A stretch of 64,000 nucleotides of DNA from Mumia sp. Pv4-285 (lineage in GTDB: Bacteria; Actinomycetota; Actinomycetes; Propionibacteriales; Nocardioidaceae), in NCBI RefSeq assembly GCF_041320275.1, contig NZ_CP162023.1, positions 496,001 through 560,000 of the forward strand, in the 5' to 3' direction. Under the pieces are notes generated by a model. The model ran no database searches. It worked only from the letters and a program-made list of their open reading frames with translations, and was not told the DNA's origin. Of this stretch, positions 20,626 through 62,939 are shown one piece after another (the first letter of the stretch is position 1; every line of letters begins with the position of its first letter). The translations under genes and the position numbers were made by a program.

Positions 20626-22926
20626 GTGACCGACGCGCCTGCCGCCACCGCCCAGCCAGCCCACCGTGCCAAGGCTCGCCTCGACACCGTCGAGCACGCC
20701 GGCTCGACCCCGGACCACGAGCAGCCGTGGGCCGAGCTGGGGCTGAAGCCCGACGAGTACGCGCGCATCCGCGAGATCCTCGGTCGCCGCCCGACCGGTG
20801 CCGAGCTCGCGATGTACTCCGTGATGTGGAGCGAGCACTGCTCCTACAAGTCGAGCAAGGTGCACCTCAAGAAGTTCGGTGAGCTGCCGCAGGAGACACC
20901 GCTCGGCAAGACGCTCGCCGGCATCGGCGAGAACGCCGGCGTGATCGACGTCGGCCAGGGCTATGCGGTCACCTTCAAGGTCGAGTCGCACAACCACCCG
21001 AGCTACGTCGAGCCGTACCAGGGCGCCGCGACCGGCGTCGGCGGCATCGTCCGCGACATCCTCGCGATGGGCGCCCGCCCGGTCGCGGTGATGGACCCGC
21101 TCCGCTTCGGCCCGCTCGACGCCCCCGACACCAAGCGGGTGATGCCGGGCATCGTCGCGGGCGTCGGCGGCTACGGCAACTGCCTCGGGCTGCCCAACAT
21201 CGGCGGCGAGGTCGTCTTCGACGAGACCTATCTCGGCAACCCGCTCGTCAACGCGCTCTGCGTCGGCGTGCTGCGCCACGAGCAGCTCCACACCGCCCAC
21301 GCGTCCGGCGAGGGCAACCAGGTCGTCCTGTACGGCGCGCGCACCGGTGGCGACGGCATCGGCGGCGTCTCGGTCCTCGCGTCGGAGACCTTCGACGCAG
21401 ACGGCCCGGCGAAGCGTCCCAGCGTGCAGGTCGGCGACCCGTTCATGGAGAAGCTCCTCATCGAGTGCACGTTGGAGCTGTTCGACGCCCAGGTCGTCGC
21501 CGGCATCCAGGACCTCGGTGGCGCCGGCCTGTCCTGCGCGACCAGCGAGCTCGCGAGTGCGGGCGACGGCGGCATGCACGTCGAGCTCGACACGGTCCCG
21601 CTGCGTGACTCGTCGCTCTCGCCCGAGGAGATCCTCATGAGCGAGTCGCAGGAGCGCATGATGGCGGTCGTCGAGCCTCAGCACCTCGACCGCTTCATGG
21701 AGATCTGCGCCAAGTGGGACGTGGAGGCCACGGTCGTCGGAGAGGTGACCGAGACCGGCCGGCTGGTGATCGACTGGCACGGCGAGACCGTCGTCGACGT
21801 GCCGCCGCGATCGGTCGCCCACGACGGCCCGACGTACGAGCGGCCGTACGCGCGACCGGACTGGCAGGACGCGCTCCAAGCTGACACGACGGCCTCGTTG
21901 GCCCGGCCGGCGAGCGGCGACGAGCTCCGGTCGACCCTCCTCGACGTGCTCGGGTCCCCGAACCAGGCCGACAAGTCGTGGGTCACCGACCAGTACGACC
22001 GCTACGTCCGCGGCAACACGGTGCTCGCGCAGCCGGAGGACGCCGGCGTGATCCGCATCGACGACGAGACCAACCTCGGCGTCGCGGTGTCGACCGACTG
22101 CAACGGGCGGTTCGCGAAGCTCGACCCGTACGCCGGCGCGCAGCTCGCGCTCGCCGAGTCGTACCGCAACGTGGGGGTGTCGGGCGGTCTGCCGCTCGCC
22201 GTCACCGACTGCCTCAACTTCGGCTCGCCCGAGGACCCGGCGGTCATGTGGCAGTTCGAGCGTGCGACGGCAGGACTGAAGGACGCGTGCGAGGTGCTCG
22301 GCATCCCCGTCACCGGCGGCAACGTGTCGTTCTACAACCAGACCGGTGAAACGGCGATCCTTCCGACGCCCGTCGTCGGGGTGCTCGGCGTCGTCGACGA
22401 CGTCACCAAGCGCATCAAGCAAGGCTTCGCCGCGGATGGTGACATCGTTCTGGTCCTGGGCACGACGCGGGACGAGCTCGACGGTTCGGCGTGGTCGCAG
22501 GTCGTCCACCAGCATCTCGGCGGAGTCCCGCCGCAGGTCGACCTCGCCGCCGAGAAGGCCCTTGCCGACCTGATGGTGGAGGTCGCGAAGCAGGGCTTGG
22601 CGACCGCCGCGCACGACCTCTCCGACGGTGGTCTCGCGATCGCGCTCGCCGAGGCGGCGATCCGCAACGGCGTCGGCGCCACGGTCGCGTTCGAGGGCGA
22701 TGCCTTCGAGGCGCTGTTCTCGGAGTCGGCCGCACGCGCGATGGTCACGGTCGCCGCGTCCGAACTCGAGGGCTTCAGGGCGCTCGCCGCTTCGTACGGG
22801 GTGCCGATCACACGGATCGGTACGACCGGGGGCGACGCGCTCGTCGTCGACGGGCAGCTCGCGGTTCCGGTGACGGAGCTGCGCGACCGCTGGACTGCGA
22901 CGATCCCCGCCGTGATGGGTGCCTGA
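20626..22926 (+). CDS. purL: Phosphoribosylformylglycinamidine synthase subunit PurL
   Basis: This 766-residue small-type PurL is the ATP-dependent amination subunit that converts FGAR to FGAM with ammonia from PurQ. Family motifs include [12 protein letters not shown] near residue 65, [44 protein letters not shown] in the second half, and [15 protein letters not shown] near the end. The GTG start is 6 bases after a -10-like TACCCT (20614-20619), so it is leaderless, and it is transcribed separately from purSQ. Confidence 0.97.
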
Positions 22927-22934
22927 ACGCTGAT

Positions 22935-22979
22935 CGTGCAAGTTCAGTGCTGAATGCCAGCACCGATCCCTCACGATCA
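22935..22979. repeat. 45-bp palindromic repeat, copy 1 (gene-flanking)
   Basis: This is an imperfect hairpin with GTGCTG/CAGCAC (22947-22952, 22958-22963) as inner stem and TGATCGTG/CACGATCA (22931-22938, 22972-22979) as outer stem. It is the first of two direct copies, 37 of 45 bases identical to 23991-24035. It overlaps the stop codon of the AbiEi/DUF559 gene and follows purL, so it may also terminate transcripts from both sides. Confidence 0.7.
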
Positions 22980-23933
22980 CGCACTGCCCTCGTCGACCAG
23001 GCAGTCGGGTGACGAGCACCGCCGGGCCGTCCCCATCCACCCGTGCTGCTGAAGGATGACGGCGAGCTTCGCGGCCGTACGGCACGGGCGGCGGAAGACC
23101 TGTCCCCATCCGAGCCTCGCGGTGGGGCGCCCTTCGCCGAGGACGTCGAGGTCGCGGTCGAGGTCGACATCCCGTTGCTCGGCGGTCTCGTGGTAGATGC
23201 GCCCGTCGAGCTCGATCACCACCAGCTCGAGATCCGCGTCCCGATACACCGCCCCGCCGCTCCCGACGGCCTTGAGCTGGCGGCGCGCGGCGGGTAGACC
23301 GTGCGGGCGTTCGACTCGGCGCAGGTATCCGTGCTCGAGTACCGAGTGCGTGCCCGAGGCGATGTCAGCGAGCACAGCCTGGATCCAGCGGCGCCGCCGG
23401 ACACGCGTTCGAGGGTGCATGGCTGCGAGGATGCGGTCGGCGGTGGTTCGCCGGCTCGCGCAGGCCCGCGCGAGTGTGGCAACGGTGACGACCTCGTCGT
23501 CGCCGGAGGTCGCCACGTCGAGTACCGCCTCCTCGTACCGCAGCCGTGGTGGCGAGCGGTTCCACGACACCATCGCGTCGAGCCGCTTGCGCCGAGCGAC
23601 CCGCAGCCCCGGCTGCGCGACCACGTTGCGTCGCCTGTCGATCGCGACCTCGATGACGTGCGGCGTCGTGGAGTCGAGGCGTACTCGTTCGGCTGCGCGG
23701 AGGGCGGACTCACCCGCCAGTGCTGCAGGCCACGCATACAGCACCGCCCCCCACGCCTGCTGCAACCACGTCGGGTTGCCCGTGTGGTCGACGTACACGC
23801 CAGGGAGGACCGGACTCAGCTCACGCCGCTTCAGCATTCGCCGGATGTCGTGCGGCTGCAGACCGAGTTCGAGCAGCTGCCGCCGCGCAACCACTCCGGA
23901 CTGCTGGTCGCACACTTCCTCCCACGGCTGCAC
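22977..23933 (-). CDS. AbiEi-type N-terminal domain plus DUF559 (Vsr-like) nuclease-fold protein
   Basis: This 318-residue protein has an N-terminal winged-helix region like AbiEi antitoxins (QSGVVARRQLLELGLQPHDIRRMLKRRELSPVLPGVYVDH). Its C-terminal DUF559 domain belongs to the very-short-patch-repair-like PD-(D/E)xK group, with ADLELVVIELDGRIYHETAEQRDVDLDRDLDVLGEG carrying the acidic residues. Such genes are common orphans in actinobacterial genomes and their role is unknown. No toxin partner is next to it. The gene is bracketed by two direct copies of a 45-bp palindrome, suggesting it moves or is maintained as a cassette between purL and the next genes. Confidence 0.75.
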   Translation of the reverse strand: MQPWEEVCDQQSGVVARRQLLELGLQPHDIRRMLKRRELSPVLPGVYVDHTGNPTWLQQAWGAVLYAWPAALAGESALRAAERVRLDSTTPHVIEVAIDRRRNVVAQPGLRVARRKRLDAMVSWNRSPPRLRYEEAVLDVATSGDDEVVTVATLARACASRRTTADRILAAMHPRTRVRRRRWIQAVLADIASGTHSVLEHGYLRRVERPHGLPAARRQLKAVGSGGAVYRDADLELVVIELDGRIYHETAEQRDVDLDRDLDVLGEGRPTARLGWGQVFRRPCRTAAKLAVILQQHGWMGTARRCSSPDCLVDEGSA

Positions 23934-23990
23934 CGGGCCAGCCTGCTACGCGCGCCCGGTTGCGTGCGTTCCGTCATCCACAGCCAAGAC

Positions 23991-24035
23991 CGTGCAGGAT
24001 CAGTGCCGCATGTCAGCACCGATCCTGCATGATCA
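23991..24035. repeat. 45-bp palindromic repeat, copy 2 (gene-flanking)
   Basis: A hairpin of TGCAGGATC-A-GTGC (23993-24006) with GCAC-C-GATCCTGCA (24016-24029), a single A/C mismatch and a 9-base loop. It is 37/45 identical to the copy at 22935-22979 and lies in the same orientation, 57 bases upstream of the AbiEi/DUF559 start and just ahead of the GNAT promoter. Confidence 0.7.
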
Positions 24036-24065: not shown

Positions 24066-24566
24066 GTGTTCCCGACCCGTGCGTACTCCCGGGACGCGGA
24101 GGCGATCGTGGCGCTGCGCGACGACCTTGCGCGCTGGCAGGTCGCGTCCGGCATCGTCCAGTGGAAGCCCGGCGAGGTGACCGCCGACCAGGTGCGCGAT
24201 CAGATCGCGGAGCAGCAGTGGTGGCTGCTGCGCGACGACGGCGCCATCAGCGCGACCGTGCGGGTGCTGGAGGACGACCCGACCATCTGGGACGACCTCG
24301 TGGCGCCGGGCACCGGCGACGCGCTCTACGTGCACGGGCTGATGGTCAGGCGGACGCACCGCGGGCGCGGGCTCGGCGGGGTGATGCTGGAGTGGGTCGA
24401 GTCCCGCGTGCGGGACGCCGGGCGTACGACGCTCCGGCTCGACTGCGCTGCGGCCAACACGTCCTTGCGTGCCTACTACGTCGGCCTCGGTTTCACCGAG
24501 CTCGGTGAGCGTGAGTTCCCTCCGCCGTACAAGACGCTCGCCCGGTTCGAGAAGCCCGTCGGCTGA
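24066..24566 (+). CDS. GNAT family N-acetyltransferase
   Basis: This 166-residue acetyltransferase has the acetyl-CoA loop RRTHRGRGLGGVMLEWVESRV and downstream LDCAAANTSLRAYYVGLGFTELGEREF, the usual GNAT C-terminal half. The acceptor is unknown. The GTG start sits 6 bases after TAGGCT (24054-24059), so it is leaderless, and directly downstream of the second palindromic repeat. The two-component genes that follow have their own promoter. Confidence 0.85.
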   Translation: MFPTRAYSRDAEAIVALRDDLARWQVASGIVQWKPGEVTADQVRDQIAEQQWWLLRDDGAISATVRVLEDDPTIWDDLVAPGTGDALYVHGLMVRRTHRGRGLGGVMLEWVESRVRDAGRTTLRLDCAAANTSLRAYYVGLGFTELGEREFPPPYKTLARFEKPVG

Positions 24567-62378: not shown

Positions 62379-62939
62379 GTGACGAGCTTTGACACCGGCG
62401 ACGCCGTAGCCCACGACGTCGTCGGCGTCGTGCGCTACCGGTTCGATCAGCTCCCGACGTACGAGCGGCGGTTCGGCAGGTCGATCGCGGTGAATACGTT
62501 CTTGCTCGGCTTCGTGCTGGTGATCGCCCTCGCTTGGCTCGTCGTCGTGCCGGCGTTGGGCTCGGTCGCGCTGGTCCCCGGCTTGTTGTTCCTGCTCGTG
62601 GGGGCGATACCGGCGTACACCCTGGCGTCCATGCGTCGGTTCCGTCGTGGGCTGCCGCGACCGGGAGGGCCCGACGTCGCTGTCGTCGTACGCCGGTCCG
62701 GCCTCGACCTGGCTTGGCCTGACCTCGGTCCGACCCGGCTGACGAGCCTGACGTGGGGTGACATCGCCGCCGTCGACCAGCGACGGGTGCGTGCCGTCAG
62801 CGTGCTACGCGTCCGCACCCGTCGCCGGCCGGCGGGCTCGTGGTGGCGTGTCGCGTACATCCCGCAAGACCTCCTCGACACCTCGGTCGACCTCGTCGTC
62901 CGTGACGTGCACACCCTCACCCGTACGAACGGGACGTGA
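62379..62939 (+). CDS. Membrane protein of unknown function (PH-like region)
   Basis: This 186-residue protein has a cytoplasmic start, two hydrophobic segments (NTFLLGFVLVIALAWLVVVPAL and LVPGLLFLLVGAIPAYTL) and a beta-rich C-terminal part (VAVVVRRSGLDLAWPD...SLTWGDIAAVDQRRVRAVSVLRVRTRRR) that resembles membrane-associated PH-like domains. The GTG start lies 6 bases after TACGCT (62367-62372), so it is leaderless and expressed apart from the operon upstream. It could be mistaken for the third gene (TmsC) of the 10-methyl operon, but I see no support for that. Confidence 0.65.
   Translation: MTSFDTGDAVAHDVVGVVRYRFDQLPTYERRFGRSIAVNTFLLGFVLVIALAWLVVVPALGSVALVPGLLFLLVGAIPAYTLASMRRFRRGLPRPGGPDVAVVVRRSGLDLAWPDLGPTRLTSLTWGDIAAVDQRRVRAVSVLRVRTRRRPAGSWWRVAYIPQDLLDTSVDLVVRDVHTLTRTNGT

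Follow-up and report, generated by a model that had tools for sequence, protein, structure and literature searches.

Why should a gene for a nuclease-like protein, lodged between purL and a GNAT acetyltransferase gene, carry a copy of the same long palindrome at either end? Could the palindromes be its operators, terminators at its borders, or the ends of something that moves? The locus lies in the window, the 64-kb stretch of DNA analysed here (C1:496001-560000 of a 4.65-Mb Mumia genome). A sequence-only reading took it for a small mobile or REP-like cassette, and the empty sites and preferential bracketing reported below support that view. Our preferred explanation, which we hold at a probability of roughly 0.56, is that palindrome, gene and palindrome make up a widespread actinobacterial unit akin to a REPtron, in which an unrelated nuclease binds its own palindrome as a dimer. 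Palindromes bracketing AbiEi/DUF559 genes were described in none of the matches listed from open-access PubMed Central full texts, a collection outside which most subscription papers fall.

A matched palindrome pair encloses the gene

Repeat finding placed the palindromes at 22932 and 23988 as direct repeats, 38/47 identical and spaced by 1056. Two direct copies of a 45-bp unit had been proposed to flank the gene; the direct copies are confirmed, as a symmetric unit of 47 bp (Table 1). Copy 1 does overlap the stop codon of the minus-strand ORF (22932-22978 against 22977-23933), and purL and the GNAT gene are the neighbours, as proposed. Copy 2 lies upstream of the start codon as claimed, at a distance that becomes 54 nt with the 47-bp unit instead of the 57 given for the 45-bp one. 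The hairpin capacity ascribed to each copy was borne out: on either strand, the 55-nt stretch around each copy folds better than every one of 200 dinucleotide shuffles (z -3.26 to -5.67).

Table 1. Features of the palindrome-bracketed locus, in window coordinates.
Feature	Position	Strand	Remarks
purL, left neighbour	20626..22926	+	
Palindrome copy 1, 47 bp	22932..22978	.	overlaps nuclease gene stop codon; 5 nt past purL stop
AbiEi-like + Vsr-like nuclease gene, 318 aa, GTG start	22977..23933	-	ORF, AbiEi profiles, predicted fold
Vsr/EDxHD-like nuclease domain (predicted), codons 196-299	23037..23348	-	
AbiEi-like winged helix + second domain (predicted), codons 1-192	23358..23933	-	
54-nt leader, palindrome copy 2 to start codon	23934..23987	-	family median about 65 nt
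Palindrome copy 2, 47 bp	23988..24034	.	upstream end of cassette
GNAT acetyltransferase gene, right neighbour	24066..24566	+	

With at least 16 of 22 positions paired, the 64-kb window contains 12 palindromes, which form two pairs spaced 300-2000 nt; one of these is the nuclease-gene pair (38/47). Relaxing the cut-off to at least 15/22 yields 31 palindromes and 19 pairs, the best of which after the nuclease-gene pair reaches 23/47. The nuclease-gene pair is thus the sole matched palindrome pair 300-2000 nt apart in the 64-kb window. Chance pairing of palindromes was rejected on these window counts and on the control windows and mismatched-pair comparisons given below. The other pair at 16/22 consists of strong 47-nt palindromes, at 62399 and 62932, that are mutually unlike (15/47).

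The protein combines an AbiEi-like module with a Vsr-like nuclease in its predicted fold

Structure prediction (pLDDT 93) gives a protein in which a two-domain, AbiEi-like module is joined to a Vsr/EDxHD-like nuclease. The window protein scores 18.7 bits against Pfam AbiEi_4 (cut-off 25) and 14.5 bits against MTES_1575, below its curated threshold of 38.2; MTES_1575 reaches E<=0.01 in 1 of 56 family members. The AbiEi/DUF559 nuclease label offered by the sequence-only reading is therefore weak by Pfam profile, with scores below the cut-offs, but clear by predicted fold. In the PDB, the nuclease part comes closest in fold to Vsr and EDxHD nucleases; the nearest viral folds include DUF559 proteins, which makes DUF559 a fair name. 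PADLOC matches for such genes are AbiEi. Beyond these models of a defence library the genes are little annotated, and NCBIfam matched 0 of the 56 family proteins. No solved structure was matched by sequence, PHROGs returned weak matches to unknown families only, the plasmid search yielded no match, and the phage search gave one distant match (MT835975, 35% identity).

In an alignment of the 56 proteins, E200, D232, E241, D243, H248 and D257, all in the predicted nuclease domain, are invariant; reading of the 318-residue window protein revealed no H-x-H motif. The window gene has a dN/dS of 0.21 against its M. xiangluensis ortholog, and values across six pairs range from 0.10 to 0.25; the intact pairs compared are under purifying selection. 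Gene decay is not rare: ten of the matches listed from the family genome search each carry one in-frame stop.

Gene and palindromes are present or absent together in Mumia

Five other Mumia genomes were compared: G001 (Mumia xiangluensis), G002, G003, G004 and G005 (Mumia quercus). At their purL-GNAT junctions G001 and G005 have both palindromes together with the gene, at 78% and 76% identity, whereas G002, G003 and G004 have neither gene nor palindromes there, the GNAT gene lying within about 45 nt of purL. The junction had been put forward as a place where close relatives might show an empty site, and three of the five others do, two having the gene with both palindromes; with its own genome included, Mumia is divided three to three. 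In G005 both palindromes have changed jointly to another sequence.

A search of the genome that contains the window found six clear copies of the palindrome and weaker ones. Two of the four clear solo copies match the cassette ends, and two solo copies sit between convergent ORFs. The palindromes of R1, a model built from the six clear copies, also bracket the G004 homolog and a second one in G001, a pseudogene interrupted by a single in-frame stop. R1 had no match at E<=1 in G002, which is without the gene; G003 has palindromes and a weak gene match only. Of 15 Mumia solo hits, selected for comparison among those with a locus sequence, 10 are at least 35/47 identical to a compared palindrome of their own genome and five are not; the three from G001 are slightly closer to G000 palindromes.

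Other arrangements occur beside these. About 1.8 kb beyond the bracketed M. xiangluensis pseudogene lies a third palindrome (G001 C1:693150, 694221, 695998). At about 3744804 of the window's own genome (L170), a related gene with one in-frame stop has a matched palindrome pair, a decayed unit. Two distant DUF559-type genes of the same genome (L016 and L017, about 1774005 and 1025068) have longer palindromes of 58-84 nt on both sides, which suggests a related but different class.

The arrangement recurs across actinobacteria

Is the bracketed gene peculiar to Mumia? Of the family's 341 genomes, 227 have gene homologs at E<=1e-12, in a search that scored about six candidates per genome and in which genomes without a match at that level count as gene-less. 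We examined 91 family loci (L022, L023, L067-L155), drawn chiefly from the leading entries among the matches listed. Of these, 64 have a palindrome of at least 16/22 upstream and 63 have one downstream; 81 have one on either side and 46 on both sides. The same level is reached in 6/178 control windows of equal size. A flank similarity score of at least 15 was attained at 21/24 mycobacterial or Gordonia loci against 0/24 control windows, and at 43/56 other named loci against 0/50; for the named loci, 80 in total, start codons were extrapolated from the alignment.

Pooling gave 171 loci from Mumia, Nocardioides, mycobacteria, Gordonia and others, of which 156 were distinct and 155 had both flanks. 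The best end pair of a locus has a median identity of 37/47, whereas ends taken from different loci reach 23/47 in the same search; the 155 loci are distinct in sequence yet include orthologs and are therefore not independent. A 99th-percentile cut taken from mismatched pairs, related loci included, is passed by 4/91 and 41/155 loci; this control is weakened for the 91 by the related loci, and their own control windows are cleaner (87 windows, maximum 17). No flank at 16/22 or better was present at 31/155 loci. The expectation that palindromes flank such genes preferentially thus held in the 91 loci and then in the 155 distinct ones, against control windows and mismatched pairs.

Confident pairs, defined as at least 34/47 identical with both members at least 14/22 paired, number 91 among the 155 loci, and their layout is nearly constant. 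The upstream palindrome lies a median of 65 nt from the start codon (IQR 63-81) and the downstream one a median of 4 nt from the stop (IQR -2 to 13), giving a compact palindrome-gene-palindrome unit of about 1.1 kb. The ends are direct in 57 pairs, inverted in 23 and tied in 11.

The near-constant distance from upstream copy to start codon would suit an operator. Could the protein be a regulator only, its AbiEi-like module repressing its own gene through the upstream copy, with other copies acting as sinks or on neighbouring genes and the nuclease acting elsewhere, for instance on phage DNA? According to passages of PMC7319586, AbiEi-family proteins autoregulate through 23-bp inverted repeats in the promoter; two such repeats would fit into 47 bp, and the PADLOC matches point the same way. 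Such a regulator leaves the matched copy at the stop codon unexplained, and likewise the joint absence of gene and both copies, the inversion described below and the dozen dispersed 47-bp copies in unrelated contexts. Nor does the window gene, with purL and GNAT as neighbours, have an AbiEii-type partner beside it. We judge this reading unlikely.

Further afield, 396 genomes sampled from the phylum were searched with a profile, and 13 of them, including the window's own, gave a match. A flank pair scoring at least 19.5, a value that is control-free at that window size, was present at 9/13 distant loci (L158, L160, L161, L162, L164, L165, L166, L168 and L170), not every repeat being palindromic and some loci coming from the window's own genome; the remaining four (L163, L016, L017 and L020) are without such a pair. 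Left out of this set were L157 (the same locus as L242), L159 (18.5), L018 (9.5) and L167 (a duplicated flank on a short contig).

A second, shorter and near-perfect palindrome around GTCACCGGATATCCGGTGAC, or a close variant, lies near L093, L112, L120, L121, L134, L139, L145 and L300. Several loci of the Nocardioides family have it close by, in most cases on the upstream side of the gene, and in one instance, in G148, it adjoins a solo copy.

Palindromes track their proteins and are symmetric as DNA

Across 89 loci, palindrome identity follows protein identity (Mantel r 0.52; 0/300 permutations as high), a correlation that is partly shared descent. Of the 3640 cells in the stems, Watson-Crick combinations fill 2911, with G-T or T-G in 195 and A-C or C-A in 219. 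Because G-T is no commoner than A-C, where an RNA hairpin would favour G-T, the symmetry is one kept at the level of DNA. In the R2 alignment of 32 sequences, selected as palindromic, changes on both sides were seen at all 20 pairs.

The same counts bear on the idea that the palindromes have nothing to do with the protein and serve as transcription terminators or insulating hairpins. Their strong stems, the downstream copy at the stop codon and the two own-genome solo copies between convergent ORFs would suit such a role; the lack of a G-T excess over A-C mismatches would not, and neither would a copy upstream of the gene or two ends that match each other and track the protein. We regard this explanation as very improbable. 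An RNA hairpin or terminator was accordingly rejected as the main reading on its G-T mismatches, while single copies may terminate transcripts.

Solo copies of a cassette's own palindrome are dispersed in its genome

One Nocardioides genome (G138) contains 12 solo copies of the same 47-bp palindrome that forms the ends of its gene (L084), in unrelated contexts and with no evident similarity beyond the palindrome. Allowing up to 3 mismatches, the L084 pattern has 14 matches in G138 and 12 in a second genome, G320, with cassette ends counted in both totals (listed for G320, inferred for G138); among the 341 genomes searched it has 0 matches in the other 339, and the reversed pattern, as a control, has 0 anywhere. 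The orthologous cassette of G320 has the same ends. Palindromes spread genome-wide with no preference for such genes would have spoken against a cassette; these copies instead match the ends of their own cassette and are absent from the other 339 genomes.

At nine solo sites of G138 compared with G320, the palindrome is present in both genomes at eight and in G138 only at one. Recent movement is not inferable from this, because 8/9 sites are shared and the lone polymorphic site is not clean. By eye, no consistent target-site duplication was seen at the solo copies or at the polymorphic site. A conventional insertion sequence is unsupported: the closest paralog of the window gene in its own genome is 65% identical, and consistent duplications of this kind were lacking by eye.

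Does carrying the gene go with carrying more palindromes? A general model gave 284 strand-hits (median 14) in 20 gene-bearing g7 genomes and 38 (median 1) in 20 gene-less ones, with cassette ends counted (P 6e-5; 0.001 when the five genomes from which model sequences were taken are set aside). After subtraction of 4 hits per gene match, the medians were 3 and 1 (P 0.039; 0.18 without those five). No strand-hit was found in 3/20 gene-bearing genomes, and some were found in 11/20 gene-less ones. The relation between copy number and gene presence is weak once cassette ends are removed.

Inversion and alternative states at a mycobacterial site

At REARRANGEMENT, Mycobacterium sp. NS-7484 (L214) and M. 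peregrinum (L222) have the stretch enclosed by the palindromes in opposite orientations while both flanks keep theirs, and the breakpoints of the inversion fall at the palindromes. A left-flank search of 297 genomes of the genus supplied 21 loci for comparison (L251-L271), nine of which were read in sequence. The cassette lies in one orientation in two (L251, L252) and inverted in three (L256, L262, L264); the other 16 are without the cassette gene, seven of them sequence-read. Of these, L253, L254 and L259 have no palindrome at the site, L255 has a degenerate palindrome beside another gene, and L257 and L258 have a single gene-less palindrome. In L260 this intergenic site is occupied, in place of the 47-bp palindrome, by a different long hairpin of the GCGATTTGTGCACGG type, so that such elements seem to accumulate there.

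Full, solo and empty states at one place invite a comparison with solo LTRs. Cassettes would move, and recombination between direct palindromes would then delete the gene and leave one palindrome, which would not be mobile by itself. The prevalence of direct over inverted ends (57 against 23 of 91 confident pairs) agrees with such remnants, as do most of the compared G138 and G320 copies, which lie at sites shared by both genomes and hence old. Yet the solo palindrome of L257 and L258 is unlike the cassette ends at that site and, by eye, belongs to another sequence family, and G138 has 12 solo copies beside one cassette with that palindrome among the gene matches examined. On balance an origin of solo copies purely as remnants appears unlikely.

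Might the nuclease instead act like a homing enzyme, cutting gene-free sites into which its gene is copied by break repair, the palindromes being parts of the recognition site or scars of repair? Homing genes normally interrupt, and hence protect, their target. Here complete palindromes persist on both sides of the gene, and the mycobacterial loci place cassettes at many unrelated sites; we think a homing-type element quite unlikely.

A possible mechanism

Direct support for the REPtron-like reading comes from the near-constant layout, the matched ends, the joint presence and absence, the inversion of a whole segment and the genome-specific dispersal of one palindrome. How could such a unit work? 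Two protein molecules might bind the 47-bp palindrome through their AbiEi-like modules, whereupon the Vsr-like domains would make a nick or a cut there. When the cut copies undergo repair or strand transfer, palindromes could spread and the gene could sometimes be moved, inverted or lost. The upstream copy may double as the operator of the gene, which is compatible with the REPtron-like reading. We propose dimer binding and cutting because the AbiEi operator approaches 47 bp in size and I-Bth0305I dimerises on a long site. According to the relevant passages of the two reports, the AbiEi binding site spans 49 bp, made up of two 23-bp inverted repeats with 3 bp between them (PMC7319586), and the target on which I-Bth0305I, of the same nuclease fold, forms a dimer is nearly 60 bp long (PMC3943268).

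The evidence says that many such genes form the centre of an element, mobile or domesticated, with palindromes on both sides, and the recurrence of gene and own palindrome across many actinobacteria looks like an unrecognised class of mobile element. This would give a non-HuH counterpart of REP/RAYT, would explain the dispersed palindrome sets of Nocardioides and Mumia, and would offer many natural pairs of a nuclease and a very long recognition site. Tentatively, and at slightly less than even odds, the REPtron principle may have been invented a second time, independently and on double-stranded rather than single-stranded DNA, in a large natural family of dimeric nucleases that are each specific for their own palindrome of about 47 bp and spread their sites through the host genome; there would then probably be hundreds of protein-site pairs from which to read the recognition code.

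Comparison with known systems

With IS200/IS605 elements the unit has in common its short length and palindromic ends; it differs in the absence of an HxH motif, in its predicted fold and in having no near-identical second gene copy in its own genome. The AbiEi antitoxins of type IV toxin-antitoxin systems (S. agalactiae AbiEi, Rv2827c) share the two-domain fold predicted for the window protein, which adds to it a C-terminal nuclease domain and palindromes at both gene ends; unlike AbiE systems, the window locus has no adjacent AbiEii (DUF1814) toxin gene. Vsr and the EDxHD homing endonuclease I-Bth0305I share the predicted catalytic-domain fold. The window protein, however, has another DNA-binding module, is not intron-borne and is flanked by its own palindromes.

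The closest parallel is the REPtron, described in passages of PMC2817692 and PMC8266576 as a RAYT (TnpA-REP) gene with a REP at either end, further copies of the REP being scattered over the genome. Judged by those passages, the likeness extends to cognate palindromes on both sides, often near the stop codon, to dispersed solo copies and to co-evolution of gene and palindrome. The differences are equally specific. The REPtron enzyme is a HuH protein with a catalytic tyrosine, whereas the Mumia-type enzyme is predicted to combine AbiEi and Vsr-like folds. REPs carry an unpaired GTAG head, but only one of 127 47-mers here begins with GTAG and one ends with CTAC. The flanking REPs of a REPtron are inverted, while the ends described here are more often direct. 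REPs often number tens to hundreds, against about a dozen copies in our best case, and the 47-bp palindrome and actinomycetotal host also set the Mumia-type unit apart. It works like a REPtron but is not a member of that class: its enzyme is non-HuH, its palindromes are GTAG-less and its ends are mostly direct.
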